Part shown: piece by piece, positions 13,541 to 38,699 of the stretch | Position numbering within the stretch: position 1 is the stretch's first letter | How the letters are laid out: each line of letters opens with the position of its first letter | NCBI RefSeq assembly: GCF_900108185.1 | Contig: NZ_FNVA01000001.1 | Span: forward strand, 1-64,000 | Length of the DNA stretch: 64,000 nt | Reading direction: 5' to 3' | Source of the DNA: Bryocella elongata | Lineage (GTDB): Bacteria; Acidobacteriota; Terriglobia; Terriglobales; Acidobacteriaceae | Notes under the pieces: generated by a model | What the model was told of the DNA's origin: nothing | The model's database searches: none | Seen by the model: only the letters and a program-made list of their open reading frames with translations | Translations under genes and position numbers: made by a program

Positions 13541-14354
13541 GGTAAGTGTGCATCGTCGCTGAGCTCAGAGCTTAGACGCACCTGGATCAGGTACGCGGTC
13601 GAGCGGTGGCCGCGTCGTGGCGGGCTTCTATGCGAGAGAGAATCTGCGATGCAACGGAGCACATAACAAAATACATTTACCTCCGGTGTCCCTGGAGCAG
13701 GCTGCATATCATATGAAACTCGCAACGAGCAGTTTGTGGTGATACCCTCTCGAGGCGGCCGATGCTTACGACAGTGGTACACGCGGCGCTTGAAGATGGA
13801 CCTGCCGCTCCAGCTCCAGCGCAAATGCTGTCGCCGGCTCGTCGGAGTAACTGAGCCCAATGGAGATCGATTTCGAGGAAGATACTCTACCCTGCGAACG
13901 CTTAATCCCAGGCATGGATACAAGATGAGGTTCCACTGATCGCGAGCACGAAGATGAAGCACGGTATCGGAAGACGAAGCATAGCCGCTCTATACAAGGT
14001 TGTCATTGGGATGCTGCTGGGCAGCACGTCCCAAGGGCACCGAGCTGATGCGCTTCGCTGTCCCCAACCCCATATATATTCGCTTCACGTGCGCACCTGC
14101 GGTGGCAGCAATGCACTTGCCGACAGCGATGCTTCCGGCTCTGGATTGTCAGTGATGGTATCGGACCGCTCGTGTGAGACCAGGAGAATTGGTGCAGGCC
14201 AGAAGACGTATAAGAGGTGCCGGCAACAGATGCGGCGGTCAGGGTGAGCAAAAGGGACCACTCTTGTGAGGTAAAGGTCGGTAGGGTAGAGATAGACTCT
14301 GACCGCTCTCACTTGCTCTCTGGTGGTTGAACGTCGACACGGAGAGTGGAAGCT
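13541..14354. other. Gap between the decayed zone and the first Crp/Fnr gene
   Basis: About 810 bases with only short, overlapping frames of chance composition on both strands. I recognise no gene, RNA or mobile-element end. Like the neighbouring pseudogenes, it may be degraded DNA. The promoter of the Crp/Fnr gene should lie in the last 150 bases. Confidence 0.3.
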
Positions 14355-23759: not shown

Positions 23760-25190
23760 CTATCGCATCCCGAGATCCGCGAGCAGCTTCGGATGCGGCT
23801 CGTTCGACACCACCAGGTTATGGCAGGTTGAACAGTCGTTCGTGATGGTCTGGCCGGTCTTACTCGTATGACTACCGTCGTGGCAGCGGAAGCATCCCGG
23901 AGAATCGTTATGACCAATGTTGTTAGGATGCGTGCCCCAGGTGACTTTCATGGAAGGGAATACGTTGGTGCTGTAGATCTTCACGAGCGCAGCCGCGGAA
24001 CCCTCAACCTGCGCTCGGTGCGTGTCCCAGACGGATGGATACTGAGAGCGATAAAAGGTGATCAGGCCGGAGGATATGCGAGTCTTCGCGTCCGTCTGGG
24101 AATCGTACTTCGCATTCAAGAGGGTGAGCGCCTCCTTGTGCAGGAAGGGCAACGACGCGCTGGGACTACCTTGCGCCATCATCCTGTCCAGCGCACCTTG
24201 CGCCGTATCGAAGGAGTGGGCCGCCCGGTTGTGGCAGTCGATGCAGTCCATGACATGCGGCTTAGCGGATGACGGAAGGGCGGCTCCCGCAGCGACAAAG
24301 TCCGTCGTGGAACCATCGGAGTTTGTCTTCCTCACCCAGGGAATCGTCTGATTCGCGGAGTCGGTCGCCATGTATTCGATCCTTCCCATGTGGGCACCGT
24401 GGATGCCGCTGAGGTGGCCGAGAACATCCTGTCCTCCGACGTGCAACAGTGTGAGGCTTGTCGTCTGGGTGTTGCTCGAATCGTCCGCGTATGCCTTGTG
24501 GATGAGTAGCTTGTCACCCAGGTCGATATGCGCGTTATGGCAATGCAGGCATGTGGCGCTCGCAGCGGGTACCTTGCTATCCGCCATGATTGGCTTCGGA
24601 TAATGGTCGACGACAACCATGAAGAGTTGCTTCGTTCCGTTTACCTTGGCGTGGACGTAGCCTGCTGCTCCCGGCGCGACGTGGCACTCGGTGCACGCTA
24701 CGCCGGAGTGTGATGAGACATGGTACGCCGCGTTCTCTGGCGCCATCACATGGCAGGTCTGCCCGCAGAAAGATACCGTGTCCATGTAAGCGACGCCACG
24801 ATAGCAACCGACGCCGACGATGATGAAGTTGACGATTGTGGCGACGGCGACAATCTCGAGTCCATGCCGGAATGCAGGATCCTGAAGACTGACTTCAGGG
24901 AAAAAGGACGGCACCTGGTCGGTCGCTAGAAGGTAGCTGCGACGTATCAGGATCCCAACAAGAATCAACACCAGTCCGAGTACGAAGACTCCTGGCAGAA
25001 GCAGATCGAAGAGAATGCCCAGGTAGGGATTCGACGAACCACCGTGACCGAAGACGCTGATGACCCAGAAGGCCGCCAGCACCATGGCCGACGCTGTTGT
25101 GATCGCGCCGCCGATCAGGCTGAGCCAGTTATTACCGTAGAAGAAGAACGGACGAAGCCAATTCTCGCGGAACGAACCTGCGTTTGGCAT
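23760..25190 (-). CDS. NapC/ImcH-like inner-membrane multihaem cytochrome c
   Basis: A 476-residue membrane cytochrome likely to oxidise quinol and pass electrons to periplasmic carriers. Three hydrophobic helices lie in the first 160 residues (WLSLIGGAITTASAMVLAAF, then YLGILFDLLLPGVFVLGLVL, then VAVATIVNFIIVGVGCY). Haem sites follow: an unusual CGQTCH (three residues between the Cys), then CTECH, CLHCH, CIDCH, CFRCH and CSTCH, so six in all. The FCGQTCHVMAPENAAY block resembles the first haem site of Geobacter-type NapC/ImcH cytochromes. Start ATG 25190 has GAGGG just upstream. It starts 11 bp after the small cytochrome gene stop and is in one operon with it. A much longer upstream frame is only the shadow of that gene. 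Confidence 0.88.
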   Translation of the reverse strand: MPNAGSFRENWLRPFFFYGNNWLSLIGGAITTASAMVLAAFWVISVFGHGGSSNPYLGILFDLLLPGVFVLGLVLILVGILIRRSYLLATDQVPSFFPEVSLQDPAFRHGLEIVAVATIVNFIIVGVGCYRGVAYMDTVSFCGQTCHVMAPENAAYHVSSHSGVACTECHVAPGAAGYVHAKVNGTKQLFMVVVDHYPKPIMADSKVPAASATCLHCHNAHIDLGDKLLIHKAYADDSSNTQTTSLTLLHVGGQDVLGHLSGIHGAHMGRIEYMATDSANQTIPWVRKTNSDGSTTDFVAAGAALPSSAKPHVMDCIDCHNRAAHSFDTAQGALDRMMAQGSPSASLPFLHKEALTLLNAKYDSQTDAKTRISSGLITFYRSQYPSVWDTHRAQVEGSAAALVKIYSTNVFPSMKVTWGTHPNNIGHNDSPGCFRCHDGSHTSKTGQTITNDCSTCHNLVVSNEPHPKLLADLGMR

Positions 25191-25201
25191 CGAACCCTCG
25201 C

Positions 25202-25522
25202 TTACTTCTGTAGCGTCCGCACATAGGCTACGACCGCGGCGATCTCCGGAGCGGTCAATTTGCTCTTGTACGCTGGCATCTTTCCCTTGCCGTTGGTGGT
25301 CGCGGCGATGAGGTCTGCGTCTGACGTCTTGACCAGTGCGGCGGATGCGAAGGGAATGGCTCCCATCGACTTGCCCGCCGGTGTGCTCCCCGATCCATCC
25401 GCGGCATGGCACATCATGCACTTGGACTTGTAGGTGTCGGCTCCCGCTTGTGCGTAAGCATGCGGAGCGACGCCGGCGATCGCGAACGTCATCAGGAATG
25501 CAACTACGAATGGATGTCTCAT
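25202..25522 (-). CDS. Small periplasmic class I cytochrome c
   Basis: A 106-residue exported cytochrome. It has a signal peptide (VVAFLMTFAIAGVAPHAYA), a single haem site CMMCH about residue 36, and the distal Met in GKMPAYKSKLT, ending with AVVAYVRTLQK as in cytochrome c6/c551-type proteins. It is first in the operon with the NapC/ImcH-like cytochrome and probably acts as its soluble electron partner in the periplasm. Start ATG 25522 with AAGGAGC seven bases upstream. The promoter region is shared with the divergent hydrogenase operon. Confidence 0.9.
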   Translation of the reverse strand: MRHPFVVAFLMTFAIAGVAPHAYAQAGADTYKSKCMMCHAADGSGSTPAGKSMGAIPFASAALVKTSDADLIAATTNGKGKMPAYKSKLTAPEIAAVVAYVRTLQK

Positions 25523-25776
25523 GATCAAGCTCCTTGGTCACAATGGCTGGCTGCCACGGAGAATAGCCAATTGGACCTATCCAATCGAATGATGGCCTAA
25601 GGGCTCCGACAAGGCTGAGCAATATTGCTCAACGGTGTGCCTCGGTGATGAAGTCTGCGGGTTCCCGCAGTTCGACTTGAACTCTTCGCAGAGAAGTGAG
25701 GCTCGCCACCGTGGTCAAAATTGCTCAGCGAACGCTATCCCAAGCTGTGTAGCTTCATGTCACCGGGAGCGTGAGA
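25523..25776. promoter_or_regulatory. Divergent promoter region of cytochrome and hydrogenase operons
   Basis: This 254-bp space controls both operons. It contains a perfect 16-bp palindrome TGAGCAATATTGCTCA at 25616-25631 and a half copy ATTGCTCA at 25720-25727. A second inverted repeat ATTGG-N6-CCAAT lies at 25570-25585, close to the cytochrome start. The symmetry fits a dimeric regulator. The Crp/Fnr protein encoded at 21652-22425 is one candidate. No binding evidence exists, and the sequence differs from the classical Fnr site. Confidence 0.5.
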
Positions 25777-26976
25777 ATGCTGAAGCAACTGCTCGCCGAT
25801 CGTGAATGCGTTCCTCCGCTGGGCACCATTGATCAGCGATTGCGTCAGTGCAACATCAGCCGGCGTTCATTTCTGGTGTTCTGTACCAGCTTGATGGTTG
25901 CGGCGCCCTATGGGCTGGCGTTGACGGACAAGACCCGGCCTGAAGATGTTGCAGCCGTGCTGGGGAAGGTCATTCGGCCACCCGTCATCTGGTTACACTT
26001 CCAGGACTGCACCGGTTGCACAGAATCACTCCTGCAGACGTCTCACCCTGGCTTTGCCGATCTCATCCTCAACGTCATTTCACTTGAGTACCACGAGACA
26101 CTGATGGCGGGCTCCGGCGCGCAGGCTCGGCAGGCGCTCGATGAGGCCATGCAGAGATACGCAGGCAAATACATCCTCGTGGTGGAAGGTTCGATCCCGA
26201 TGGGGGCTCAAGGGATCTACATGAAGAGCGGTGGCCGCACTGCGATGGAGGTGCTGACTGACGTGGGTGGCAAGGCCGCTGCAATCATCGCGATCGGCTC
26301 CTGCGCCTCGTGGGGTGGCATTCCCTCGGCGGACCCTGATCCTACCGGCGCTGTGGGCGTCGCCGATCTGCTGCCGGACCATTCGATCATCAACATTCCC
26401 GGGTGTCCCCCGAACCCTTACACGATGCTTGGCGTGGTGCTGCAGTACGCAGCCGATGGAACCTTGCCGGAGACGGACGAACAGCGGCGGCCAAAGTTTG
26501 CCTTCGATCGCGATATCCATGAACATTGCCCGCGGCGCGCACACTTCGACGCCGGCAACTTCGTGAAGGTGTACGGAGATGCCGGCCACCGCGAAGGTTG
26601 GTGCCTCTATGAGATGGGTTGCAAAGGGCCAGACACGCATGCCGGCTGCTCGACGCGCCACTTCAATGAGATCCCCGATGTCTGGCCGATCGGAATCGGT
26701 GCACCCTGCATCGGCTGTACCGAGAAGGCCGTGGCATTCAAAGTTCCCATGTTCGAGGTGGTGCAGCTTCACACAATTGCCGCGCCTCCGACAAGCTATG
26801 CCTCCATCACGACGACGCGCGGAACGATAAGTCCTCTGGCCACAGGCCTGGTTGGGCTCGGGGTGGGAGTGCTGGCAACCGGCGGCTACGTTGCCTCGCG
26901 CAAGTTCTCGCGGAAGCAAGACGACGATGATGCACCAGGCGAAGACCCTGGTTCGCATGAGCGGCCCCAACCATGA
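25777..26976 (+). CDS. hybO: [NiFe] hydrogenase small subunit, Hyb type
   Basis: This is the electron-transfer subunit of a periplasm-facing, membrane-bound uptake hydrogenase. A Tat signal (SRRSFLVFC, then a hydrophobic stretch) exports the folded dimer. Iron-sulphur ligands are all visible. The proximal cluster has DCTGCTES, GSCASWGG and PGCPPNP. The distal cluster has EHCPRRAHFDAG, GWCLYEMGC. The medial cluster has GCSTRHFN and APCIGC. The proximal motif CTGC lacks the extra Cys of oxygen-tolerant enzymes. A C-terminal helix (LVGLGVGVLATGGYVAS) anchors it. ATG 25777 is chosen because GGGAG is seven bases upstream; GTG 25771 is too close. The gene overlaps the next by four bases. Similarity to E. 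coli HybO is strong by eye. Confidence 0.95.
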   Translation: MLKQLLADRECVPPLGTIDQRLRQCNISRRSFLVFCTSLMVAAPYGLALTDKTRPEDVAAVLGKVIRPPVIWLHFQDCTGCTESLLQTSHPGFADLILNVISLEYHETLMAGSGAQARQALDEAMQRYAGKYILVVEGSIPMGAQGIYMKSGGRTAMEVLTDVGGKAAAIIAIGSCASWGGIPSADPDPTGAVGVADLLPDHSIINIPGCPPNPYTMLGVVLQYAADGTLPETDEQRRPKFAFDRDIHEHCPRRAHFDAGNFVKVYGDAGHREGWCLYEMGCKGPDTHAGCSTRHFNEIPDVWPIGIGAPCIGCTEKAVAFKVPMFEVVQLHTIAAPPTSYASITTTRGTISPLATGLVGLGVGVLATGGYVASRKFSRKQDDDDAPGEDPGSHERPQP

Positions 26977-27929
26977 ATCTCATGGCCATCCCGATGTCGC
27001 GCCGACAAGCGTTCAAGGTGATGATCGGCTTTGGCGGTACGGTCGCCAGCGTAGTCTTGCCAAAGCCGGCGCTGGCCTCCCCGGAGGAGCATCCAGCGCA
27101 TCCTGTGGCCCCGCCGGATGCTGTCGCCATGCTTTATGACAGCACCATCTGCACCGGCTGCAAGGCCTGCATGCCCGCGTGCAACGAAGCCAATGGCCTG
27201 CCCACCGATACGGTTCTCTCCGGCGGCATCTGGGACATGCCTACGGGGCTGAATGCAAAGACTAAGAACATTATTGAGCTGTATCAGGATCCGCAGTCGA
27301 ACGAGTTCGCGTTCGTCAAGAAGCAGTGCATGCACTGTCTTGATCCCGCGTGCGTGACCGGTTGCCCTTTCGGATCACTGGTGAAGAGAGACCTGGGCGC
27401 GGTCACCTGGAATAGCTCGTTGTGCATCGGTTGCCGCTATTGCGAAGTGGCATGTCCGTTCGAGGTTCCGCAGTTTCAATGGGATTCGTGGAACCCGAAG
27501 ATCGTCAAATGCGAGTTCTGCTACGACCAGCGTCTTAAGGAGAATCTGGAGCCGGCCTGCACGGCAGTGTGCCCAACCGGCGCCGTGATCTTCGGGAAGA
27601 GGGACGCGCTGCTGCACCAGGCCAAGGATCGGATCGCCGCAGCCCCAGGCAAGTACTTCGAGAGCCGTATCTACGGAGAACACGAAGCCGGCGGTACGCA
27701 GGTGCTCTATCTCTCGAATGTCTCCTTCCAGAAGATTGGTCTTCCCAAGCTCGGCCCCACCTCCATTGGTCACTATGCAACGAAGGTCACCTCGAAGATC
27801 TACAAGTGGCTGGGAGGCCCAATCCTGATGGCCGGCGTGCTGGGGTTTGTGATTCGACGCAACTGGAACCGGCATGAGTTGGAGAGGCTGGAGCACGAGA
27901 AGAAGACGGGGTATCCGGACCAGCTATGA
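26973..27929 (+). CDS. hybA: Hydrogenase 4Fe-4S ferredoxin-type subunit HybA
   Basis: This carries electrons from the small subunit towards the membrane quinone site. A Tat signal (SRRQAFKVMIGFGG) is followed by four Cys clusters typical of the HybA/DmsB/NrfC family: CTGCKACMPAC, CMHCLDPACVTGC, CIGCRYCEVAC and the split CEFC...CTAVC. That gives four predicted 4Fe-4S centres. A C-terminal hydrophobic helix (WLGGPILMAGVLGFVI) gives membrane attachment, as in E. coli HybA. The start overlaps the hybO stop (ATGA) and its stop overlaps the hybB start, indicating tight translational coupling. Confidence 0.95.
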   Translation: MNLMAIPMSRRQAFKVMIGFGGTVASVVLPKPALASPEEHPAHPVAPPDAVAMLYDSTICTGCKACMPACNEANGLPTDTVLSGGIWDMPTGLNAKTKNIIELYQDPQSNEFAFVKKQCMHCLDPACVTGCPFGSLVKRDLGAVTWNSSLCIGCRYCEVACPFEVPQFQWDSWNPKIVKCEFCYDQRLKENLEPACTAVCPTGAVIFGKRDALLHQAKDRIAAAPGKYFESRIYGEHEAGGTQVLYLSNVSFQKIGLPKLGPTSIGHYATKVTSKIYKWLGGPILMAGVLGFVIRRNWNRHELERLEHEKKTGYPDQL

Positions 27930-29245
27930 TCCCGACCCCCGCAAGTCCCGACGAGCGAGGCACGACCCTCATCAATCACTGGCAAACGGGCGTGCCAGTG
28001 ACGCAAGGTCCTGTCCTTACGCCGCTGCTCTGCTTCCTGATCGCACTGGCAGCCATCGGACTCATTCTGGCTGGCATCCGCGTCGTGTCACCGCTCGCTC
28101 CATTCTCCGCAATGAACTCCGTTTACGCGTGGGGGATCTGGAAGACGTTCAACGTGATGACGCTGACCGCGCTCGGTTCGGGCCCATTGGCGCTGGGGAT
28201 GGCTGCGTGGGTGTTCAACCGGCAGAAACTGCATGTGGTGATGCGCACTGCGCTTGTTTCGGGATTCCTCTTCTATGCGACCGGTCTCATCGCGCTAGGC
28301 TTCGATGTGGGTAGGCCCTGGAACTTCTACAGCGCCGCCATGCCCTGGCGCTGGAACAGCGAATCGGCGATGCTCGAAATCTCAATTTGCATGCCGCTTT
28401 ACTGCGCAGTCTTCCTGTCATTCGAGATTCTGCCTCTCTTTCTCGAGCGCCTCTACTACACCGGCAATGAAAAGTCGCGAGCGTTCCTTCGTCATATCTC
28501 GCCGCGCATTCGCAAGGTATATCCCTACATGATCATAGGAGCGTACGTCATTCCACTGATGCACCAGTCTTCATTGGGTGGCCTGCTGCTTCTGGCGGGA
28601 GACAAGATCGATCCGCTCTGGCAGTCTCCCGCGATGCCTCTGCTCTATCTCGTCGCCGCGGCCCTTTGCGGCTTTGCCTTCACCACGTTCTTGCTGCTCA
28701 TCGTCTGCCTGCGTTATGGGCGCAAGCTCGATACCGCTGTGCTGGCGGAGTTGGCAAACCTGCTCTGCGGCATGTGCTTTCTGTTCCTGGCGATTCGCGC
28801 CATCGACCTTGTGTGGCGGGGACAGATCCACGCAGCGTTCGCGCTGAACGAGATGAGCCTGCTCTTTCTGCTTGAAACATCGCTTATCTTGTTGCCAGCC
28901 GTTGCTCTTCGTTTTCGCCGCGTTCGCGAAACACCGCGTGCGCTGCTGAATACATCCGCCCTCGCCTGCGCCGGTGGTATGTTGTATCGGTTCATCCCCA
29001 CGTCCATCGCCTACTCGCCCATGCGCAGTACCAGCTACTTTCCGTCAGTCCCTGAACTGGTGATGGCCGTTGGCTACATCTCGCTGGGCATCGTCGCGTT
29101 CGTCTTCGCGATCAACTACTTCGCCGTATTGCCCGGAGAGGCCAGCAGCTGGGATCATGCGTTTCGTCCGTTTGGATGGACGCGCCCAAGTTTGGCCAGA
29201 GCTGTGACTGTGAGCCCGGCAATCGCATCAGAGACAGGAGCTTGA
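27926..29245 (+). CDS. hybB: Hydrogenase membrane subunit HybB (NrfD/PsrC family)
   Basis: A 439-residue integral membrane protein with about ten hydrophobic helices and no haem motif. It resembles HybB of the NrfD family, which binds quinone and, in Hyb enzymes, links H2 oxidation to the quinone pool. Typical pieces are the helix after TQGPVLTPLL, NSVYAWGIWKTFNVMTL, a GFDVGRPWNFY loop and YMIIGAYVIPLMHQSSLGG, with conserved polar residues for quinone and proton handling. It lies between hybA and the large subunit, as in E. coli hybOABC, and overlaps both neighbours. Confidence 0.93.
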   Translation: MIPTPASPDERGTTLINHWQTGVPVTQGPVLTPLLCFLIALAAIGLILAGIRVVSPLAPFSAMNSVYAWGIWKTFNVMTLTALGSGPLALGMAAWVFNRQKLHVVMRTALVSGFLFYATGLIALGFDVGRPWNFYSAAMPWRWNSESAMLEISICMPLYCAVFLSFEILPLFLERLYYTGNEKSRAFLRHISPRIRKVYPYMIIGAYVIPLMHQSSLGGLLLLAGDKIDPLWQSPAMPLLYLVAAALCGFAFTTFLLLIVCLRYGRKLDTAVLAELANLLCGMCFLFLAIRAIDLVWRGQIHAAFALNEMSLLFLLETSLILLPAVALRFRRVRETPRALLNTSALACAGGMLYRFIPTSIAYSPMRSTSYFPSVPELVMAVGYISLGIVAFVFAINYFAVLPGEASSWDHAFRPFGWTRPSLARAVTVSPAIASETGA

Positions 29246-30942
29246 TGGCACGCATTTCTATCGACCCGGTGACGCGCATCGAGGGGCATCTGCGTATTGA
29301 TGTCGAAGTGGATGGCGGCGTGGTCAACAAGGCCTGGGCCAGCTGTACGATGTGGCGAGGCCTCGAGACGATACTGCGCGGGCGCGATGCGCGCGAGGGC
29401 TGGGTCTTCGCACAGCGTTTCTGTGGCGTATGCACAACCGTTCATGCAGTCGCTTCAGTGCGGGCAGTAGAGGATGCTCTCTCGCTTGAGATCCCACCGA
29501 ACGCCCAGTACATTCGCAATCTCATCCTCATCGGACATGCGCTGCACGATCACATCGTGCACTTCTATCACCTCTCCGCGCTGGATTTCGTGGACATCAT
29601 GCAGATACCGAAAGCGGATCCAGCCAAAGCCGCATCCATCGCAGAGGCTTCGAGCTCGTGGGCAGGCAACTCTAGGACGGAGCTTGCAGCGGTGCAGACC
29701 AAGGTGAAAGGCCTCGTCGCCAGTGGTCAACTCGGCATCTTTTCGCATGGCTACTGGGGCCATCCCGCGATGAAGCTCAGTCCGGAAGTGAACCTCATTC
29801 TCTTTTCTCACTATCTTCAGGCGCTGGATTTCCAGCGTAAGTCCTGCCAGGTGGTTGCAATTCTTGGCGGCAAGACGCCACACATCCAGAACCTTGCTGT
29901 CGGCGGCGTGATGAACGCCATCAACCTCAACAGCCTCGCAACAATGAATATGGATCGGCTAGGCATGCTGCAATCGATCCTTGAAGACCTCATCCCATTT
30001 GTGCAGCAGGTGTTTCTCGCTGACACCTGCCTTCTTGCCGCGTACTATCCGGAATACCTGCACATTGGACGCGGCGTCGCCAACTATCTCGCTGTGCCCG
30101 ATCTTCCGCTGGATGCAAAGGCAAGTAAGTTTGACCTTCCCGGCGGCGTAATCTTGAATGGTGATCTCGCAGGAGTGCGCCCTATCGTCAACTGGCAGGA
30201 CACGGAGTTTCGCAAAGCCGTCACAGAGGACTCCACGCATGCCTGGTATCAAGGTGCCGGACCGCTGCAGCCTTACAAGGGCCAGCAGATCCCCGACTAC
30301 ACAGACTTCAGGGAAGATGCCAAGTACACCTGGGTAAAGGCGCCGCGCTACAACGGAAGCCCCATGCAGGCCGGCCCTCTCGCCAATGTCTTAGTGGGAT
30401 ATTCGAGTGGTCACAAGCTCACGCGCAAGTGGACGGACATCGCCTTCCAGCGAATCGCCGCGGTGGATGGGCTGAAGGTTACGCCCAACGATCTTCAGTC
30501 GACGATGGGCCGTTATCTCGCCCGTTCCATCCGTTCGGCGATGCTCTCTGACCTCGCCCTCGAACATCTGCAGTTGCTGACGACCAACATACTCAATGGT
30601 GATGACACCACCTATAACGCACCCCAGTTTCCCAAGGGAGAGATCATGGGAATGGGGATGCACGAAGCGCCGCGTGGAGCACTTTCGCATTGGGTCGTCA
30701 TCGACAAAGGTTCGTTTACCAACTACCAGGCAGTTGTTCCCACGACCTGGAACGCGAGCCCCCGGGATGAAAACGGTGTTCCAGGGCCCTACGAGACGTC
30801 GCTGGTCGGAAGCCCTGTCGTCGATGCAGAGAAGCCGCTGGAAGTGCTTCGCACGGTTCATTCCTTCGACCCTTGCATGGCTTGTTCCTGCCACACAATG
30901 GACGCAACAGGAAACGAAGTGGCACAGGTGAAAGTCCAGTGA
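29245..30942 (+). CDS. hybC: [NiFe] hydrogenase large (catalytic) subunit HybC
   Basis: This holds the NiFe active site that splits H2 into protons and electrons. Both metal-binding Cys pairs are present: RFCGVCTTVH (C60, C63) near the N-terminus and DPCMACSCH (C544, C547) near the end. After His550 there is a 15-residue tail that the maturation protease should remove after nickel insertion. The start ATG overlaps the hybB stop (TGATG) with AGGAG just upstream. A longer in-frame extension from 29176 overlaps hybB and is not supported. Family: group 1 uptake enzyme, Hyb-like (1c) by gene order and motifs. No own signal; it should be co-exported with HybO. Confidence 0.95.
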   Translation: MARISIDPVTRIEGHLRIDVEVDGGVVNKAWASCTMWRGLETILRGRDAREGWVFAQRFCGVCTTVHAVASVRAVEDALSLEIPPNAQYIRNLILIGHALHDHIVHFYHLSALDFVDIMQIPKADPAKAASIAEASSSWAGNSRTELAAVQTKVKGLVASGQLGIFSHGYWGHPAMKLSPEVNLILFSHYLQALDFQRKSCQVVAILGGKTPHIQNLAVGGVMNAINLNSLATMNMDRLGMLQSILEDLIPFVQQVFLADTCLLAAYYPEYLHIGRGVANYLAVPDLPLDAKASKFDLPGGVILNGDLAGVRPIVNWQDTEFRKAVTEDSTHAWYQGAGPLQPYKGQQIPDYTDFREDAKYTWVKAPRYNGSPMQAGPLANVLVGYSSGHKLTRKWTDIAFQRIAAVDGLKVTPNDLQSTMGRYLARSIRSAMLSDLALEHLQLLTTNILNGDDTTYNAPQFPKGEIMGMGMHEAPRGALSHWVVIDKGSFTNYQAVVPTTWNASPRDENGVPGPYETSLVGSPVVDAEKPLEVLRTVHSFDPCMACSCHTMDATGNEVAQVKVQ

Positions 30943-31508
30943 CTACGATCTCCGTGATTGGACTGGGAAACATCTTCCTTGGCGATGATGGCTTCGGGCC
31001 GGTTGCCATCGAAAGCTTTCGTTGTGAGTACGAATGGCCTCCGCATGTGGATGTTCTTGATCTTGGAACGCCTGGGCTCGATCTGGCACCCTACCTCTAC
31101 GACAAAGAGCTTGTGGTCATGGTCGATGCAGTCCATGCGGATGCGGCAGTGGGAACACTCTCGATCTTTCAGGAAGAGGACTTTGTCTCGCAACGGGCAA
31201 AGCTCCGCATCACCGGCCACGATCCGGGACTATGGGAGACGCTGGCACACCTTCGACTGGCCGGACATGCCCCTTCGGAGCTCATTATCGTGGGTGTCAA
31301 TCCGAAAGCCTGCAATTTCGCTGACGGCATCAGCGACGAAGTTTGGAGCACGGCATCGCGTGCCTCCGAGATGATCGCGATCTTGCTTCTCGAACGCGGG
31401 ATCGCTTGCTTCCCGCGTCGAAAGCCTGGGGTGCCCAACCTCTGGTGGTTGCGGATGCTATCGGCCGACAGTTCTGCGGAACTACCGGGAGCTTCTACGA
31501 ATGCATGA
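30939..31508 (+). CDS. hybD: Hydrogenase maturation protease (HybD/HyaD family)
   Basis: This endopeptidase removes the C-terminal tail of the large subunit after nickel loading. The N-terminal signature VIGLGNIFLGDDGFGPVAIE carries the first acidic nickel-sensing residue. VVMVDAVHAD and the TGHDPGL segment provide the further Asp and His ligands of this family. Start GTG 30939 overlaps the hybC stop by four bases. It is 189 residues, slightly longer than E. coli HybD (about 164) because of a C-terminal tail containing a Cys and a Trp-rich stretch. The stop overlaps the hypA start. Confidence 0.9.
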   Translation: MTTISVIGLGNIFLGDDGFGPVAIESFRCEYEWPPHVDVLDLGTPGLDLAPYLYDKELVVMVDAVHADAAVGTLSIFQEEDFVSQRAKLRITGHDPGLWETLAHLRLAGHAPSELIIVGVNPKACNFADGISDEVWSTASRASEMIAILLLERGIACFPRRKPGVPNLWWLRMLSADSSAELPGASTNA

Positions 31509-31905
31509 GATCTCGATTGCCGAGAGTATTGTTCAGATCGCTGAAGCAAAAGCGCGCGAGCAGAACGCGCAATCGATCCAGATCATCAAGCTGCGACTGG
31601 GGACGTTTACAACAATCGTCCCTGAAGCTCTCCAGTTTGCCTTCGAGATCGCTCGCCAGGACACGCTGTCCTGCAACGCCCAGCTCGACATCGAAATCGT
31701 ACCCATGACCATGCGCTGTGTCGTTTGCGACGCGACAATGCAACCCGTGTGCGGACTCTGTCTCTTCTGTGAGCAATGCGGCTTTCCGTTGAAGATCATC
31801 TCTGGAGAAGAGCTCCAGGTCGAGTACATCGAAGTGGATTCGGAGAAGGAGGAGGCACCATGGAATCGACGCCAGGACGAATTTCGGTCCAGACCCATGT
31901 ACTGA
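31501..31905 (+). CDS. hypA: Hydrogenase nickel-insertion protein HypA/HybF
   Basis: A small nickel metallochaperone. The N-terminus MHEISIAESIV contains His2, the nickel ligand. The zinc-binding loop shows CVVC and CEQC pairs, with CGLC between, as in HypA. Residues after 110 form a polar tail (KEEAPWNRRQDEFRSRPMY) not usual in the family; this tail overlaps the hypB gene. It works with HypB to load nickel into HybC. It is in the middle of the overlapping maturation operon. Confidence 0.92.
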   Translation: MHEISIAESIVQIAEAKAREQNAQSIQIIKLRLGTFTTIVPEALQFAFEIARQDTLSCNAQLDIEIVPMTMRCVVCDATMQPVCGLCLFCEQCGFPLKIISGEELQVEYIEVDSEKEEAPWNRRQDEFRSRPMY

Positions 31906-32576
31906 ACGCTAATCAACAAACAGCCGCGGCGAACCGCGAGCGATTTGCCACGGAAGGCCTGCTGGTGATGAACCTGATGTCAGCCCCCGGAGCTGGCAAG
32001 ACGACGCTTCTCGAAGCAACGATCAAAGCCCTTCAAGGTCAATTCCAACTCGCTGTCATCGAGGGTGATCTGCAGACTGACCTCGACGCCCAGCGAATCG
32101 AGGCCCTCGGAGTCCGTGCATACCAGATCACCACGGGAACCGTGTGTCATTTGGATGCTCGAATGGTGGCGCGCGCGCTTGACGCATTTCCCATCAGCGG
32201 CCTGGACCTTCTGGTCGTCGAAAATGTCGGAAACCTTATCTGTCCTGCATCGTTCGACCTGGGAGAAGGCCTCCGCGTGGTGGTATGCAGTGTTGCGGAA
32301 GGAGCGGAGAAGCCAAAGAAATACCCTGTCATGTTCAATAAAGCCAATGTCGTCCTGATCAATAAGATCGATCTCGCTGCCGCATCGGGCGCGGACCTAA
32401 ACGAACTCATGACCAACGTCCGAGACGTCAATCCCGATGCCACCATCTTTGCCCTTTCCTCACGGACGGGCGAAGGCATGGGGGCATGGATACATTGGCT
32501 TCAACAGGCGGTAGAACTCCGCGCTGTCCCAGTAATGGCCGGGATGTCATCGCGACGTCTCGGTCCTGCTTTGTAA
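31860..32576 (+). CDS. hypB: Hydrogenase nickel-incorporation GTPase HypB
   Basis: A 238-residue SIMIBI-class GTPase that drives nickel delivery. The P-loop is SAPGAGKTTLLEA, with VIEGDLQTDLDA, the dimer metal site GTVCHLDARM, and NKIDLAA for guanine binding. It lacks the N-terminal CxxCGC nickel motif of E. coli HypB and any His-rich stretch, so it is the short form without nickel storage. A very strong ribosome site (GGAGGAGG) precedes ATG 31860, which lies inside the end of hypA. It pairs functionally with HypA. Confidence 0.93.
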   Translation: MESTPGRISVQTHVLNANQQTAAANRERFATEGLLVMNLMSAPGAGKTTLLEATIKALQGQFQLAVIEGDLQTDLDAQRIEALGVRAYQITTGTVCHLDARMVARALDAFPISGLDLLVVENVGNLICPASFDLGEGLRVVVCSVAEGAEKPKKYPVMFNKANVVLINKIDLAAASGADLNELMTNVRDVNPDATIFALSSRTGEGMGAWIHWLQQAVELRAVPVMAGMSSRRLGPAL

Positions 32577-32606
32577 TGCACCAACGATGATCCGCAGGGG
32601 ACGACT

Positions 32607-32867
32607 ATGTGTCTGGCTGTGCCAGGAAAGATTGTGAGCATTCAAGTCGAAGAATACTTGGGCCTGCGACGAGGACAGATCGACTTCGGAGGCATTCGCA
32701 AGGAAGTGTGCCTTGACTACACGCCTGAAGCTCTGGTGGGAGACTTCGTTATGGTCCATGTCGGATTTGCCTTGTCGATTGTGAACGAAGTCGAGGCGCA
32801 TCGGGTCTTCGCAGCGCTGCGAGAGTTCGATCTGCTTGAGGACCTCGAAACGCCGGGGGCAGGATAA
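32607..32867 (+). CDS. hypC: Hydrogenase assembly chaperone HypC
   Basis: An 86-residue HypC/HybG-family protein. It begins [10 protein letters not shown]; Cys2 and the following AVPGK motif bind the Fe(CN)2CO fragment and HypD. The remaining OB-like barrel includes [18 protein letters not shown] and [12 protein letters not shown], as expected. It ferries the iron centre from the HypCD complex to the large-subunit precursor. Thirty bases separate it from hypB and five from hypD. Confidence 0.95.
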
Positions 32868-32872
32868 GTCGG

Positions 32873-34003
32873 ATGAGATACCTCGACGAGTACCGGGACT
32901 ACGACTCCGTCCAGCGCATGGCACAGGAGATTCGCCGTGTCTCGAATCGCCCATGGACGCTGATGGAGGTCTGCGGTGGACAGACCCACACCATCGTCAA
33001 GAGCGGTCTACAGGAATTGCTGCCCGCATCGATCACTCTCGTCCATGGTCCTGGTTGCCCGGTCTGCGTCACTCCTATCTCCATGATCGATCGAGCGGTA
33101 GCCACGGCACTCTTGCCCGAGGTCATCCTCTGTTCCTTTGGGGATATGCTTCGTGTGCCCGGTTCTACGCAGAGCCTGCTCGACGCCAAATCTCTTGGCG
33201 CCGATGTCCGTATTGTTTATTCGCCCCTAGATGCTCTGAAGTTGGCTCGGTCCAATCCTCAACGCGAGGTCGTCTTCTTCGCGGTCGGCTTCGAAACGAC
33301 TGCCCCAGCGAATGCCATGACGGTGTGGCAGGCTTGTCGCGAGAAGCTTTCCAATCTATCGATGCTGGTCTCGCACGTCCTCGTGCCGCCAGCTATGGAA
33401 GCTGTGCTCTCGTCTCCTCAATGCCAGGTCCAGGGCTTTCTCGCGGCAGGACACGCCTGCATGGTTACAGGCTACGAAGAGTACTTTTCGATCAGCCGAA
33501 GGTTTCGGGTTCCGATTGTCGTCACAGGGTTCGAACCGCTCGATCTTCTCGAAGGTGTGCTGATGCTGGTGCGGCAGCTTGAACACGGATGTGCCGAGGT
33601 CGCGAACCAATACACACGCGCTGTAGCAAGGGAAGGGAATCGGGCCGCACAAGAGAGGGTGTCTGAGGTCTTTGAGGTGACAGACCGCGCGTGGCGTGGC
33701 ATCGGCGAGATCGCTGGAAGTGGATTGCGCTTGCGAGAGACCTACCGGAGCTTCGATGCCGAGGCGAAATTCGATCTGCAACTCGAAGACCCAACAGAGT
33801 CTCCGGAGTGCATCGCCGGCCTCGTCTTGCAAGGTCTGCGCAGGCCCTACGACTGCCCCGCGTTTGGCACGCGTTGCACTCCGGATGCCCCGCTGGGCGC
33901 TCCTATGGTCTCGTCGGAAGGTGCGTGCGCCGCCTACTTTCACTTTGGAAGGAGCAAGGACGATGCCGACCTTTACATGCCCGTTGCCGCTGCCAACCCG
34001 TGA
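32873..34003 (+). CDS. hypD: Hydrogenase Fe-cyanide assembly protein HypD
   Basis: This is the scaffold on which Fe(CN)2CO is built, with HypC. It has the expected motifs in order: MEVCGGQTH (iron/thiol site), [11 protein letters not shown] (redox Cys pair), [36 protein letters not shown] and the C-terminal 4Fe-4S ligands around [29 protein letters not shown]. It is 376 residues, full length. Its 3' end overlaps the start of hypE by 41 bases. Confidence 0.95.
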
Positions 34004-35015
34004 ACGGATTCTGCTGGCTCACGGTGGCGGTGGTCGACTGACAAATCAACTTCTCGAAGAGATATTCCTTCCTGCGTTCGCCAACACAGCCCTCGAAGCA
34101 CGTCATGACGGAGCATTGCTCTCGGTAGGTGGCGCCAGGCTTGCCATGACGACCGACAGCTATGTCGTCCAGCCATTAGTGTTCCCAGGAGGGACGATTG
34201 GTGACCTCGCCGTCAACGGAACCGTTAACGATCTTGCGATGTGTGGCGCACGCCCCATGGCTCTCAGTGCCGGATTCATCCTCGAGGAGGGGCTAGCCAT
34301 GGATACCCTCCGTCAGGTGGTTTTCTCCATGCGCGATGCCGCAATGATGGCTCACGTGCCCATCGTGACCGGAGACACGAAGGTGGTGGACAAGGGAAAG
34401 GGCGACGGGATCTTCATCAACACGTCAGGCATCGGTGTGGTGGTTGCGCCAGGACCGATTGGTCCCCAGTCCGTTCGAGCCGGCGATGTCGTCCTCGTGA
34501 GTGGAGATCTTGGAGCTCACGGAATCGCGATCCTCTCCGTGCGCGAAGGGCTCCAGTTCGAGGGCCCGATGCTCAGCGACACAGCGTGCCTCTGGCCCGC
34601 TGTCGAGGCACTACTCAGTGCCGGCATCGAGATCCATTGTCTGCGAGATCTTACCCGTGGGGGCTTGTCCTCTGCGCTCAATGAGATTGCTTCAGCCGCA
34701 GGACTTCACATCATGGTGCAGGAGGCTCTTATCCCGGTCTCGGCTGTCGTCCGAGGTGCGTGTGAACTGCTTGGCCTCGATCCACTCTACGTCGCCAATG
34801 AGGGACGCTTCGCCGTCTTTATCGCCGAGAAAGACGCTGACCGTGCGCTCACAATCCTTCGCGCACAAAGTGTCTCCGCGGGTGCCGTGCAGGTTGGCAT
34901 GGTCCATGAACGAAAGTCCGATAGGAGTTCAGGGATCGTTACCCTTCGCAGCCGTATCGGAGGCCACCGGGTGCTCGACATGATGTCGGGGGAACAGCTT
35001 CCGAGGATCTGCTGA
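33963..35015 (+). CDS. hypE: Hydrogenase carbamoyl-dehydratase HypE
   Basis: This converts the carbamoylated C-terminal Cys to thiocyanate, giving the cyanide ligands of the iron. PurM/AIR-synthase-like fold with ATP site: [56 protein letters not shown] and [12 protein letters not shown]-like text ([11 protein letters not shown]). It ends exactly in PRIC, the conserved carbamoylation tail. ATG 33963 has AAGGAGCAAGGA directly upstream. It closes the operon. HypF, which supplies the carbamoyl group, is not in this window. Only 8 bases separate its stop from the stop of the convergent mtrB-like gene. Confidence 0.95.
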
Positions 35016-35023
35016 TGATGTTG

Positions 35024-37684
35024 CTAGAACTCGTAGTGCATGGACAGAGTGACGATGTTGGCATGCATGTTTCTCGGTGCGCTCAATCCGGAGGATGGTT
35101 CCTTCAACCCGGTTGGTCCAATGAGCGTGGGAGAGTTGCAAGGGACGACTACCGAAGTCAGAGACGTTGAACTGCTGCAGAACGGTGCACCCGAAGGGCC
35201 ACCCTCGCCGTAGCCAAAATAGTTGTACTCCGCCTTCCAGATCCAACCAGGCCGGATCGTCCAGGTTGCATTGAAGTAGGGAGACTGGTATGCCGATTGG
35301 AGAGAACCATTCACCTGCTGCGCGTTCGCGAAGAACTGGTTGCCGCTTACCGCACTGATACTGTAACCCGCCGCTAAGCGGATCATCGGCTTCGGGGAGA
35401 AGTTGGCGCCCACGGACGCATACTGGGTGGGTGCATCCATGAAGTCCTTGGTCGGTCCCCAGTCCGAGAGCACGGTCGTAGAGCCCCTGACGAATACTCC
35501 AGGACAGATATTTGGCGCACCGCTGCTGGTGGTGGAGGCCGTTCCGGGCAACGTTGCTGTGGCGCCATTCAGATAACAGGCATTCGTTGAGATATAGATG
35601 TCCGAGTAGTCATAGTTGACTTCGAACCCATAACGCTCGTTCGGTGCGACTGTCAGGCCCACGCCGGCATTTCGCGTGTGGTCGACATGCCCCAGGGGCC
35701 CATCGATCGGTGTGACACCGGTGTTGAAGGTGTTGTTGTGACGCTCCAGATCGTTCCAGGCTCCCGATATCGTGGCCCATGGCTTGAGCTTGTACAACGT
35801 GTGAAACCGGTAGTGCTTTGTTTGCCTGGGGCCAATGGGAGTCAACGCGTTGTCGTCATACAGCATCTCGACTGTCCCGTTGATCCTCCACTGCGCTGTA
35901 GGGCGCAGCGCGATATTCAGGATCCCGCCGTTCTCGTTGATGGTAATCAGCGAACTTAACGTGCCCGACCCGGCTGCCTGCACAATGCTATGCGTCCTGT
36001 AGCGGTAGGTGAGCGCGATCGTAGCTCGAGGCGAAGCTTCCCAGCTCACGGTCGCATTGTTCGTCAGGTAGCGCTGGCCGAAGTAACCATACAGAGGCGC
36101 ACCATTGGGATTTCCTTCGATCGTGTAATTCGCTCCCGCCAGCAGTGGTCCAGCGTAGTTCACGGTCTCATTGCCTGCGGTGGTTGGCACGTTCTGCGTG
36201 ATACCCGGGGTGACGTTTGCACTGCCCGGCTGGTGCACGTTTGAGAAATCAAACTGATCGGAGAGGCTGATTCTCTCCGTTGCCTGCCAGGTGATGCCGA
36301 GGTCTGAGCTTGCCACCCGCCTCTGCACCCTCGCATTACCCGTGAAGGTTGCATTGCGAATCGCTCCGTCGAGTCCCTGGAAGTTTTCGTAGTAGTGCGC
36401 GAGGTTGCTGTTCGCGATCGTGTACCCGAGGTCGCCGTTGACAGCGATATTCTTCAGGCTCGCACTCTGAAAGCGGAGCATCTCGGTGGGGTAGAGCACA
36501 CGCGTCGGCTGGGAACGAAGGTAGCTCGTCACGACATCGCACGCCGGATTGATGATCGGCCGGCCGCCTGCGGTCTGCGCCGGCGACAGGATCGTGTAGT
36601 TGCTCGCGCTTGTGTACCCGCTGCCCATACTCGCGGTGTTGCATGAGGCAATGGAATAGGGCGACGCCGTTGCGTCCCAGTTACCAAGTGCAGCCGGCGT
36701 GCCGTCCGCTTCCTGCACGTTGAACTGGCCTGGCGCGATCGTGAAGTACGAATCGGCCTTGTAGTGGTCCACCTGTTCTTCAAAGGTGAGCGAGGTCAAC
36801 CGCCACGGCTTCCATGTGATCGCTCCGAGGAAGTCATCGGTGCTGTTGCGCTGGTACTCCTGAAGCAGCAAATCGGATGTTCCGATGGAATACCCAGGGC
36901 TCAGACTCGGCCCTTGGAATATGTTTTGTGAATATCCCACCCGGAAAGAGACCTTTGAAAGCGGCAGAATCGTCAGGTTGACGTCTGTCATCCTGCGCAC
37001 TGTATTGAACATAACGGGCGATTGATTCAGCTGCGGTTGGGGCAGTGAAGCCGTCGTTGGAACTCCAGCCGTCATTCCATACGCAGTCCCCACCCCCGGC
37101 GGAATACTGGGATTCGCAAGCAGATCGTAGTCGAAATATTGCCGGTCGCGCCGAAAGGTTCCACTGAACTCATAAAGCTTGCCCTTGGAAAACGATAGCT
37201 TGGCATAGTTGATGGGGTCGCCCCCAAAGCCATTGCTGAAGGCACTCAGCGAATCGATGAGCGCGTGCTTTGTGCCAGGGATCGCGCGCATCGAAAACGT
37301 CTGGCCGAGTACCCGTGGCCCGGAATGAAGATTCACAAGTGTGTCGTACATCGCACCACTGCCCGATACCCCCACCAGGTGCCCTCCAAGATCAGCCGAC
37401 TGCCGGATCACATAGCCGTCCTGCTGCACCTGCTGTGCTGCGACAGGCGCGACAGCGGCCACTGGTGCGACTGGAGCGACTGGAGCGGTAGGGCCGCGCG
37501 GCACCGTTGCTGTTGGGGGCGCAGCCGGCTTCGATGCGGGCACCTTCAGCGAAGGCGTCTGTGCAGTCATGATCGCCACGCTCATCAACTGTCCCACCAT
37601 GACGAGACTCATCATGATCGAACCCCAGCGCGCGCGCGTTACCCGGCATTTGTATCCCCGGCAGAGTCGGTCGATCTTCGTCAT
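35024..37684 (-). CDS. MtrB/PioB-like decahaem-associated outer-membrane beta-barrel
   Basis: An 886-residue outer-membrane protein with many alternating beta strands and a C-terminal aromatic strand (IVTLSMHYEF). This matches the MtrB/PioB/DmsF-type porin that sheathes a decahaem cytochrome. The signal region (IMMSLVMVGQLMSVAIMTAQT) lies after a 24-residue positive N-terminus. An unusual Pro/Ala/Val-rich periplasmic stretch (VAPVAPVAAVAPVAA) precedes the barrel. Barrel text includes YEFSGTFRRDRQYFDYDLL, VSFRVGYSQNIF and ALTYRYRTHS. No N-terminal CxxC pair, seen in Shewanella MtrB, is present. The adjacent decahaem gene lies 85 bp upstream on the same strand, forming an mtrAB-type operon. The family assignment rests on size, barrel pattern and partner. 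Confidence 0.82.
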   Translation of the reverse strand: MTKIDRLCRGYKCRVTRARWGSIMMSLVMVGQLMSVAIMTAQTPSLKVPASKPAAPPTATVPRGPTAPVAPVAPVAAVAPVAAQQVQQDGYVIRQSADLGGHLVGVSGSGAMYDTLVNLHSGPRVLGQTFSMRAIPGTKHALIDSLSAFSNGFGGDPINYAKLSFSKGKLYEFSGTFRRDRQYFDYDLLANPSIPPGVGTAYGMTAGVPTTASLPQPQLNQSPVMFNTVRRMTDVNLTILPLSKVSFRVGYSQNIFQGPSLSPGYSIGTSDLLLQEYQRNSTDDFLGAITWKPWRLTSLTFEEQVDHYKADSYFTIAPGQFNVQEADGTPAALGNWDATASPYSIASCNTASMGSGYTSASNYTILSPAQTAGGRPIINPACDVVTSYLRSQPTRVLYPTEMLRFQSASLKNIAVNGDLGYTIANSNLAHYYENFQGLDGAIRNATFTGNARVQRRVASSDLGITWQATERISLSDQFDFSNVHQPGSANVTPGITQNVPTTAGNETVNYAGPLLAGANYTIEGNPNGAPLYGYFGQRYLTNNATVSWEASPRATIALTYRYRTHSIVQAAGSGTLSSLITINENGGILNIALRPTAQWRINGTVEMLYDDNALTPIGPRQTKHYRFHTLYKLKPWATISGAWNDLERHNNTFNTGVTPIDGPLGHVDHTRNAGVGLTVAPNERYGFEVNYDYSDIYISTNACYLNGATATLPGTASTTSSGAPNICPGVFVRGSTTVLSDWGPTKDFMDAPTQYASVGANFSPKPMIRLAAGYSISAVSGNQFFANAQQVNGSLQSAYQSPYFNATWTIRPGWIWKAEYNYFGYGEGGPSGAPFCSSSTSLTSVVVPCNSPTLIGPTGLKEPSSGLSAPRNMHANIVTLSMHYEF

Positions 37685-37769
37685 ATCAAGCCTCGTCGGC
37701 GATGAAGCAGTGTTCTGTCGAAGTCATCATTCGACCCGGGAGTGCGGCCACGTCATCGTGCCGCCACCG

Positions 37770-38699
37770 TTACCGAATAAATGCCGGATTGACGTTAGAG
37801 CCATGGATCATGGTGTGACAGCCCACGCAGGATTGGACCTCGGCGGACCCAGCATTCATGCCATGGATGGTTCCAGCGGCAACCGGGCTGTGGCACTGGT
37901 TGCACATCTGGTTGACGTTGGGAACATTCAGCAGCCGCGCGTTCTGAGAGCCATGGGGTGTGTGGCATCCAAGGCAGCCTTCCGCCTTCACCGCAGCATG
38001 CTCGAAGACGAACGGTCCGCGCGTCTCCGTGTGGCACTTGGTGCAGATCATGTTCTGATCCGCTGTCGACCGTAGCTGGCTATTGCCAAAGGTCCCATGC
38101 GCGTCGTGGCAATCACTGCACTTGATCAGGCCTTCCTTGACCTTGTGATGAAATGGCTGACTGAAGGCGGGCTTCACGTCGGCGTGGCAAGTGAAGCAAA
38201 GCTGCGGCTGATCGACCTTCAGCAGACTTGCGGCGCCATCAAGACTCTTCGAGCTGCTGTGGATGCTATGGCAGCTCGTGCAGCCGACATCGGCTTTGCC
38301 GTGTGCAGAACGCATGAAGTTGGGGTGAGCTTCAGCATGGCAGGCAAGACATGTGCTATCGATCTGCTTCGCCGACATCTTACTGAGTTGCAGAATCTTC
38401 GTCGGGTCCCCGCCAGAATCAACGTGCGCTTGCCCTGGCCCATGACAGCCTTCACAGGTCACACCCTTGCCGCCGTGCATGAGAGCCAAAGCAGAATGAG
38501 GGTTTGAGGAGAACTTGTTGGCGACGTCCGCGTGGCATGTGGCGCAGGTCTCCGCTCCTGCAAAGGCTCCGGGAATTGCTGACGCTGCCTGATGACCCAA
38601 CGTAGACGATTTTGTCTGTTGCCCTGCGGCAACCGTCGCGGAGGTCCAGAAGCCTGCGAGTGTCGCTAGCGAGAAAAGAACCAGGAGCAAGCGCCGCAT
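37770..38699 (-). CDS. Decahaem c-type cytochrome, MtrA/PioA/DmsE family
   Basis: A periplasmic cytochrome that carries electrons into or through the outer-membrane porin. A signal peptide (LLLVLFSLATLAGFWTSATVA) is followed by exactly ten CxxCH sites: CATCH, CEGCH, CLACH, CTSCH, CFTCH, CSDCH, CTKCH, CLGCH, CNQCH and CVGCH. Two repeated five-haem halves, with extra His residues as distal ligands, fit the MtrA fold. The length of 309 is typical (MtrA about 333). Strong ribosome site (GAGGAG) before ATG 38699. Next gene in the operon is the MtrB-like barrel. No extracellular MtrC-type cytochrome gene is present. Confidence 0.95.
   Translation of the reverse strand: MRRLLLVLFSLATLAGFWTSATVAAGQQTKSSTLGHQAASAIPGAFAGAETCATCHADVANKFSSNPHSALALMHGGKGVTCEGCHGPGQAHVDSGGDPTKILQLSKMSAKQIDSTCLACHAEAHPNFMRSAHGKADVGCTSCHSIHSSSKSLDGAASLLKVDQPQLCFTCHADVKPAFSQPFHHKVKEGLIKCSDCHDAHGTFGNSQLRSTADQNMICTKCHTETRGPFVFEHAAVKAEGCLGCHTPHGSQNARLLNVPNVNQMCNQCHSPVAAGTIHGMNAGSAEVQSCVGCHTMIHGSNVNPAFIR

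Follow-up and report, generated by a model that had tools for sequence, protein, structure and literature searches.

What is a complete hydrogenase operon doing between two groups of genes for electron transfer to the cell exterior? The question is raised by a stretch of 64,000 nucleotides of Bryocella elongata DNA, called here the window (positions 1 to 64,000 of NZ_FNVA01000001.1, contig C4 of the 5.67-Mb genome). Its Hyb-type [NiFe] hydrogenase operon has on one side the genes of an ImcH-like multihaem cytochrome and a small cytochrome c, and on the other those of a decahaem cytochrome and an MtrB-like outer-membrane barrel. An earlier interpretation made from the letters alone (the sequence-only reading) had proposed that this group links the oxidation of H2 to the reduction of an acceptor outside the cell. 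Judging from gene content and from its comparison across relatives, the island probably works as one respiratory module connected to a conduit in the outer membrane, in which electrons would run outward from H2 by way of quinone to the outer membrane.

With the barrel as query we scanned named genomes, and examined the best 80 of 171 loci, with flanks of up to 10 kb (many contigs were shorter); the counts are therefore weighted to near relatives. Genes in these loci were longest-ORF (open reading frame) calls with BLAST labels, and some genes were missed. The decahaem gene stood immediately upstream of the barrel gene in 73 of the 76 loci that had room for it. Of the 49 loci with 6 kb or more of sequence downstream of the barrel, 42 had a cytochrome c gene and 39 an ImcH-like gene there on the same strand, the latter within 9 kb. 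The two flanks in the window are halves of one cassette, decahaem-barrel-cytochrome c-ImcH, which is contiguous in most relatives examined. Read along the minus strand, the window shows the decahaem gene, the barrel gene, the entire hyp-hyb run in the opposite orientation, then the cytochrome c gene and the ImcH-like gene. The hydrogenase operon is nested, reversed, within an electron-export cassette.

We observed the same nesting in Granulicella paludicola (L037, L120) and G. rosea (L121), with hypF included in both; by the barrel, these were the closest named relatives among the best 80 loci. The cytochrome c gene of G. rosea is intact (L121:16657-17043). In genome G327 (L153) the order matched that of the window up to hybO, where the stretch examined ended. 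The large subunits of the species sharing the nested order were about 91% identical.

Other loci combined the same parts in other ways. At locus L110 the barrel was followed by hybO, a heptahaem cytochrome gene (13733-14614) and hybABCD, so that the heptahaem gene lay between hybO and hybA. In bog_364 (L048) hybBAO was divergent from ImcH, followed by the decahaem and barrel genes. A locus of an Acidobacteriaceae metagenome-assembled genome (L063) had, all in one direction, genes of the small and large subunits, a protease, the decahaem, the barrel, 13-haem and 11-haem cytochromes, a cytochrome b and ImcH; locus L069 resembled it, with no recognised small subunit. Within L063 (13060-17914), the 13-haem protein carried a C-terminal cytochrome b part similar to formate dehydrogenase gamma, a CbcL-like layout, and the 11-haem gene was followed by a separate cytochrome b gene; these proteins are possible further quinol oxidases. 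Some more distant arrangements were seen as well. At L186 (G237:C52) the small-subunit gene of a Hya-type hydrogenase was separated from that of the large subunit by a distant hexahaem gene of NapC/ImcH-like kind (32% identical). Two loci of another genus (L164, L171) had Hyb operons with a distant set of cytochrome c, 11-haem and, in L164, ImcH-like genes some kb downstream, which may be a third case of linkage, to a different barrel.

A second island was found in the B. elongata genome itself (C6:98001-118000, with genes at L016 7371-18102). There, a second barrel (63% identical to that of the window) and a second large subunit (47% identical) lay 2.2 kb apart (C6:107862-114171). The hydrogenase of this island is Hya-type, the genes of its small subunit and of a cytochrome b561-type protein being divergent from that of the large subunit, and a separate decahaem, barrel and ImcH-like gene follow it. 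When the whole genome was searched for paired CXXCH motifs, eight matches were obtained: six (36-50 bits) were the decahaems of the two islands, and the remaining two, weaker (22-24 bits) yet above the cut-off, were other proteins. Both barrels, both Hyb/Hya-type large subunits and the six best paired-CXXCH matches of this genome sit in the two islands.

How often hydrogenase and barrel are neighbours was determined in a sample of 299 Acidobacteriaceae genomes, at least 70% complete and drawn from a larger group. At thresholds of E 1e-100 for the large subunit and E 1e-60 for the barrel (a fragmented barrel being counted once), there were 99 large-subunit and 121 barrel places. The large subunit was present in 86 genomes, the barrel in 109 and both in 56 (odds ratio 5.6, p 1.5e-10, uncorrected for phylogeny and completeness). 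Within 20 kb of each other lay 18 of the 74 same-genome pairs, in 17 genomes, compared to 0.6 expected for random places in an assumed 4.8-Mb genome, about 30 times chance by a statistic that ignores phylogeny and completeness. In Silvibacterium bohemicum S15, for example, the large subunit and the barrel were 15.8 kb apart.

A tree was made from 71 large subunits longer than 480 amino acids, taken from annotated loci after removal of identical rows (a part of the 99), and a row was called linked if a barrel lay within 17 kb in the stretch examined. The 18 linked rows fell in two deep clades, making up five of the six rows of the Hyb clade and 13 of the 19 rows of the Hya-type clade. Along the tree the linked/unlinked label switched 8 times, no fewer than 6 of the switches being forced by well-supported branches, compared to 16.4 switches in shuffles. 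Four of the seven unlinked rows in the two clades were near contig ends (L155, L183, L196, L197), and three had no barrel in the stretch examined (L020, L021, L179). We put at about even the chance that Acidobacteriaceae built a one-locus chain from H2 to the exterior more than once, that the hydrogenases placed within or next to the ImcH-MtrAB-like cassette are of at least two deeply separate types (Hyb, and Hya with cytochrome b), that the barrel of this cassette is a new relative of MtrB which profiles do not see, and that the window organism carries two such chains.

The hydrogenase genes of the window (Table 1) form a single tight run on the plus strand with open frames (25771-35015), in the order hybO-hybA-hybB-hybC-hybD-hypA-hypB-hypC-hypD-hypE. 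Overlaps were 4 bp for hybO/hybA, 4 bp for hybA/hybB and, with the probable hybC start, 1 bp for hybB/hybC. The sequence-only reading had described a complete operon of hybOABC, hybD and hypABCDE, and this held: HybO, HybA, HybB, HybC and HybD all gave strong family matches, and HypA to HypE were present. From the gene content, with all of HybOABCD in the operon, the enzyme is classed as a Hyd-2-type (group 1c) [NiFe] hydrogenase. HybC, whose top match in the PDB was hydrogenase-2 (E 9e-209), has both Ni-binding motifs (RxCGxCxxxH, DPCxxCxxH) as RFCGVCTTVH on the N-terminal side and DPCMACSCH at the C-terminus, followed by a tail of 15 residues for removal by HybD. With these two motifs, the cleavable tail, the Tat (twin-arginine translocation) signals and the transmembrane helix of HybO, the hydrogenase looks intact. 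Among the Hyb equivalogs tested (HybO, HybA, HybB, HybC), HybA alone exceeded its E. coli-type cut-off; scores for the others were 397 vs 659 bits (HybO), 281 vs 450 (HybB) and 772 vs 969 (HybC). The window cluster does not include hypF; a 45%-identical HypF homologue is encoded elsewhere in the genome (C10:30317-32647). Near this hypF gene, a five-haem TPR protein (L123 2590-4872) matched domain II/IV of MtrC/MtrF with 31.3 bits at a cut-off of 30 bits.

Table 1. Features of the hydrogenase island and its surroundings, in window coordinates.
Feature	Coordinates	Strand	Evidence and remarks
CRP/FNR-family regulator, possible regulator	21652..22425	-	some 1.3 kb past the ImcH-like gene; cNMP_binding E 6.3e-17, HTH_Crp_2 E 1.7e-12
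ImcH-like cytochrome, putatively quinol-oxidising, 476 amino acids	23760..25190	-	three predicted transmembrane helices, one CX3CH, five CX2CH
small monohaem class I cytochrome c	25202..25522	-	signal peptide; PF13442 E 4.3e-14; CMMCH motif
perfect 16-bp palindrome TGAGCAATATTGCTCA	25616..25631		248-bp divergent region between cytochrome c gene and hybO; candidate CRP/FNR-type operator
hybO, hydrogenase small subunit	25771..26976	+	TIGR00391 E 1.9e-117; Tat signal SRRSFL; C-terminal transmembrane helix
hybA, Fe-S electron-transfer subunit	26973..27929	+	NF008134 HybA 319.7 bits vs cut-off 263; Tat signal
hybB, NrfD-type quinone-reactive membrane subunit	27926..29245	+	NF008133 E 1.6e-83, below cut-off; PF03916; several transmembrane helices
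hybC, [NiFe] large subunit	29245..30942 (listed ORF from 29176; probable ATG 29245)	+	PF00374 E 3.8e-203
hybD, maturation protease	30939..31508 (listed ORF from 30873; probable GTG 30939)	+	PF01750 E 5.2e-19
hypA	31501..31905	+	TIGR00100 above cut-off
hypB	31860..32576 (listed ORF from 31776)	+	TIGR00073 above cut-off
hypC	32607..32867	+	PF01455 E 1.4e-22
hypD	32873..34003	+	PF01924 E 1.5e-150
hypE	33963..35015 (listed ORF from 33696)	+	AIRS and AIRS_C domains
MtrB-like (by predicted fold) outer-membrane beta-barrel, 886 amino acids	35024..37684	-	AlphaFold2 fold; 3' end 8 bp from hypE end
DmsE/MtrA-family decahaem cytochrome c	37770..38699	-	TIGR03508 256.4 bits vs cut-off 192.2; ten CXXCH

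A NapC/ImcH-like cytochrome and a small cytochrome c had been proposed for one flank of the hydrogenase. Both are present, and the first label narrows to ImcH-like by the number of transmembrane helices and the architecture of the haem motifs. ImcH homologs are described as having three N-terminal transmembrane helices, an atypical CX3CH and 5-9 CX2CH, and 19 of them were counted in Acidobacteria (PMC6295460). The window protein matched PF03264 in its longer ORF (E 5.8e-07) and, below the cut-off, an NrfH-like domain (E 4e-12); its nearest solved relative was NrfH (2j7a, E 1.4e-07). In an alignment of the protein, the CX3CH was kept in all nine rows, two of which had one additional residue ahead of the conserved Met. 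It was also present in each of 53 ImcH-like ORFs of more than 400 amino acids from the 80 named loci, and 50 of these 53 had five CX2CH.

The decahaem gene on the other flank had been called MtrA/DmsE, which its ten CXXCH motifs and its TIGR03508 score bear out. A profile built from eight relatives matched 6r2q_A best (E 1.9e-50); chain A of this structure we take to be MtrA and chain B to be MtrB. The barrel, on the other hand, gave no match to any Pfam family (up to E 1) or NCBIfam family (up to E 10), and a 10-row profile of it found no sequence match in the PDB (best E 2.3). Its AlphaFold2 model was made with 42 sequences (mean pLDDT, the per-residue confidence, 78.8; predicted TM-score 0.70; first 87 residues of low confidence). 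For this model the top fold in the PDB was 6r2q_B (E 4.7e-14, TM-score 0.65 on the target). The search gave 172 matches at E 0.001, the next best being TonB-type receptors from E 1.8e-10, and among the 50 matches listed the 49 others reached TM-scores of at most 0.48 on the target. A viral fold library gave two matches at E <0.001, both to generic outer-membrane barrels. The predicted structure thus makes the barrel MtrB-like by fold, not by profile. As a separate possibility for a decahaem-barrel pair, respiration of dimethyl sulphoxide (DMSO) or iodate as in DmsEF was considered and rejected, because no DMSO-reductase catalytic gene was seen among the cluster genes scanned.

With these parts a continuous chain can be proposed. 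HybOC would oxidise H2 in the periplasm, and HybA together with HybB would reduce menaquinone with the electrons released. Re-oxidation of the quinol would fall to the ImcH-like cytochrome, the small cytochrome c may ferry electrons across the periplasm, and the decahaem within the MtrB-like barrel would lead them out across the outer membrane to an external oxidant such as Fe(III) or humic quinones. We infer the outward direction because ImcH homologs have so far been linked to quinol oxidation alone (PMC6295460). Nesting, its conservation in G. rosea and G. paludicola, the second island and the roughly 30-fold linkage together support a functional link between hydrogenase and conduit, much as the sequence-only reading had suggested.

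Several observations weigh against this outward-running module. Hydrogenase subunits were found at only 10 of the 80 barrel loci, so the cassette functions without a hydrogenase. Of the two outcomes that the sequence-only reading had named as refuting it, separation of the operons in relatives was common: among the 56 genomes in which both parts occur, 39 showed no pair within 20 kb (some were broken by contig ends), although the cassette itself is contiguous in most relatives examined and the nesting is kept in the two Granulicella species. The 18 linked pairs are not independent because the linked species are related. Locus L110 had no ImcH-like gene by the cassette, one being located on another contig of that genome, and in bog_364 (L048/L122) hybB was fragmentary, with no large subunit seen beside it. 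The barrel was the part of the sequence-only reading that fared unevenly: the closest solved fold is indeed MtrB, but the match is partial (TM-score 0.49 on the query, root-mean-square deviation 8.5), and the MtrB/PioB profile search, a negative outcome of which had been the other refuting condition, gave no match. In the whole-genome search PF11854 matched neither this barrel nor any canonical MtrB elsewhere; this search has no positive control, since 14 control genomes also gave no match above the cut-off. Because the profile fails, the MtrB label rests on the fold and on the decahaem neighbor. Finally, no surface cytochrome of MtrC/OmcA type was found above the cut-off genome-wide, TIGR03507 giving one weak match (E 8.3e-5) on another contig.

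The rival explanations have to account for the same facts. Neighbors brought together by accidental rearrangement would be consistent with parts that are often unlinked, but with 18 pairs against 0.6 expected a chance neighborhood was rejected, and since the nested order was kept at about 91% large-subunit identity and linkage occurs in two deep clades, chance or drift is highly improbable as the origin of the island. The arrangement exceeds chance because the flanks are one conserved cassette and because the linkage of hydrogenase and cassette recurs. A shared niche is another candidate explanation. Both systems would then belong to life at low oxygen, perhaps under one CRP/FNR-type regulator, with electrons from H2 going mainly to terminal oxidases and the conduit serving mainly organic donors. 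The scarcity of hydrogenases at cassettes and the many hydrogenases with no cassette nearby fit this explanation; so do the CRP-like genes common beside the cassette (an excess partly built in by the search model) and the general family knowledge that hydrogenase and conduit meet at the quinone pool anyway. Nesting within the cassette, linkage of two hydrogenase types and two islands out of two in the same genome, however, exceed what a shared regulator needs, and we consider a niche shared by otherwise separate systems unlikely.

The conduit could also work inward, like MtoAB or PioAB, with Fe(II) or some other solid as electron donor and the hydrogenase reversed as an H2-evolving valve. Hyd-2-type hydrogenases are reversible, and two-component conduits with no surface cytochrome resemble PioAB and MtoAB; Fe(II), however, reduces quinone poorly at low pH. 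While PioA and MtoA homologs have been reported in the class Acidobacteriia (PMC10654088), the tie of ImcH homologs to quinol oxidation only (PMC6295460) argues for the opposite direction, and electron uptake appears quite improbable. Outward electron flow from H2 thus remains our preferred reading of the island.

Whether hydrogenase and cassette are also controlled together was considered from the intergenic sequence. The degenerate pattern of the palindrome TGAGCAATATTGCTCA (a motif picked post hoc) had a single exact match in the 5.67-Mb genome. At the same divergent position, G. paludicola had an exact match, and G. rosea and bog_364 had two-mismatch sites. The site was self-complementary at 8/8 positions in the window, 7/8 in G. 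paludicola and only 5/8 in G. rosea and bog_364; among random 250-base stretches taken from the window, 0.35% contain an 8/8 site. When up to two mismatches were allowed, the pattern was not rarer in the window than by chance (2 matches vs 1.3 expected). One-mismatch sites preceded the decahaem gene in two other Hyb-linked loci, by about 200 bp in G. rosea and about 270 bp in L110. Before 82 decahaem genes, 2 one-mismatch sites were seen vs 0.08 expected by density, and 3 two-mismatch sites vs 1.1. Six distinct sites with 0-1 mismatch were present in 3.14 Mb of loci (overlaps included): four directly before hyb or decahaem genes in Hyb-linked loci, one about 0.9 kb from the decahaem gene of S. 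bohemicum (L043 = L190) and one in an unrelated place (L199). The pattern was not found in the 650 bases before the window's own decahaem gene at up to four mismatches, and the C6 island had no site at 0-1 mismatch. Genes of CRP-like proteins lay within 3 kb upstream of the decahaem gene in 40 of 63 eligible loci, compared to 6.5 expected by density; part of this excess is built in because the search model consisted of six CRP proteins picked beside cassettes or hydrogenases. For a CRP/FNR-type control of the island these observations are hints, no more.

Among known systems, the Shewanella conduits MtrAB and MtrCAB (6R2Q, a PDB entry with the title 'Structure of the Mtr complex') resemble the window in pairing a DmsE/MtrA-family decahaem with a large barrel, and chain B of that complex is the solved structure nearest in fold to the window's MtrB-like barrel. 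The window system differs from MtrCAB in a barrel outside the MtrB/PioB profile, in a genome with no MtrC/OmcA partner above the cut-off and in a quinol donor that appears ImcH-like rather than CymA-like. E. coli hydrogenase 2 (group 1c, HybOABC) has the same subunits, Tat signals and active-site motifs; in contrast, HybO, HybB and HybC of the window are under the equivalog cut-offs, and the operon is linked to an outer-membrane conduit. The likeness to Geobacter ImcH and its homologs is one of architecture (Table 1). The ImcH survey states that it found no mtrAB or mtoAB adjoining imcH (PMC6295460), whereas here an ImcH-like gene followed the barrel in 39 of 49 loci.

In Deferribacter autotrophicus a [NiFe] hydrogenase adjoins a multihaem cytochrome cluster, which the authors tied to H2-dependent iron reduction; this organism is of another phylum with other parts, and its genome is reported to have no homologs of MtrA, MtrB, ImcH or CbcL (PMC6896113). 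For Acidobacteria, PMC5900883 reports strains, S. bohemicum S15 included, with mtrA/mtrB homologs and group 1c/1f hydrogenases, but its account treats the two separately and says that the strains do not have complete mtr/omc operons. Iron reduction by Acidobacteria has been proposed from decahaem genes (PMC3669403), and porin-cytochrome clusters have been reported in Holophaga (PMC7399161), group 1c and 1d hydrogenases in Terracidiphilus (PMC9599518) and Fe(III) reduction by Acidobacteriaceae cultures (PMC8790237). The searched text of PMC4245776 and PMC11475568 does not mention Acidobacteria. In the titles and abstract starts of the open-access papers listed we found no description of an acidobacterial hydrogenase-MtrAB island, in line with the sequence-only reading, which knew of none, and none of ImcH beside MtrAB-like genes. 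The individual parts are known in Acidobacteria. What appears to be new is their combination: a nested operon, linkage that recurs in two clades of hydrogenases, ImcH joined to MtrAB-like genes in one cassette, and a barrel that profiles do not see.

Acidobacteria abound in soil and peat. A cassette that is conserved but has a barrel missed by standard profiles could help to reconcile the Fe(III) reduction seen in Acidobacteriaceae cultures (PMC8790237) with the incomplete mtr/omc operons reported for acidobacterial strains (PMC5900883). The pairing of hydrogenase and cassette suggests a capacity for respiration from H2 to something outside the cell, and because of it H2-driven extracellular respiration can be put to the test in G. 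rosea DSM 18704, G. paludicola DSM 22464 and S. bohemicum S15.

Beyond the decahaem gene, the window also encodes another large barrel protein (40901-44563) with carboxypeptidase-regulatory and OMP_b-brl_4 parts, near an IclR regulator (39810-40673), apparently bearing no relation to the island.

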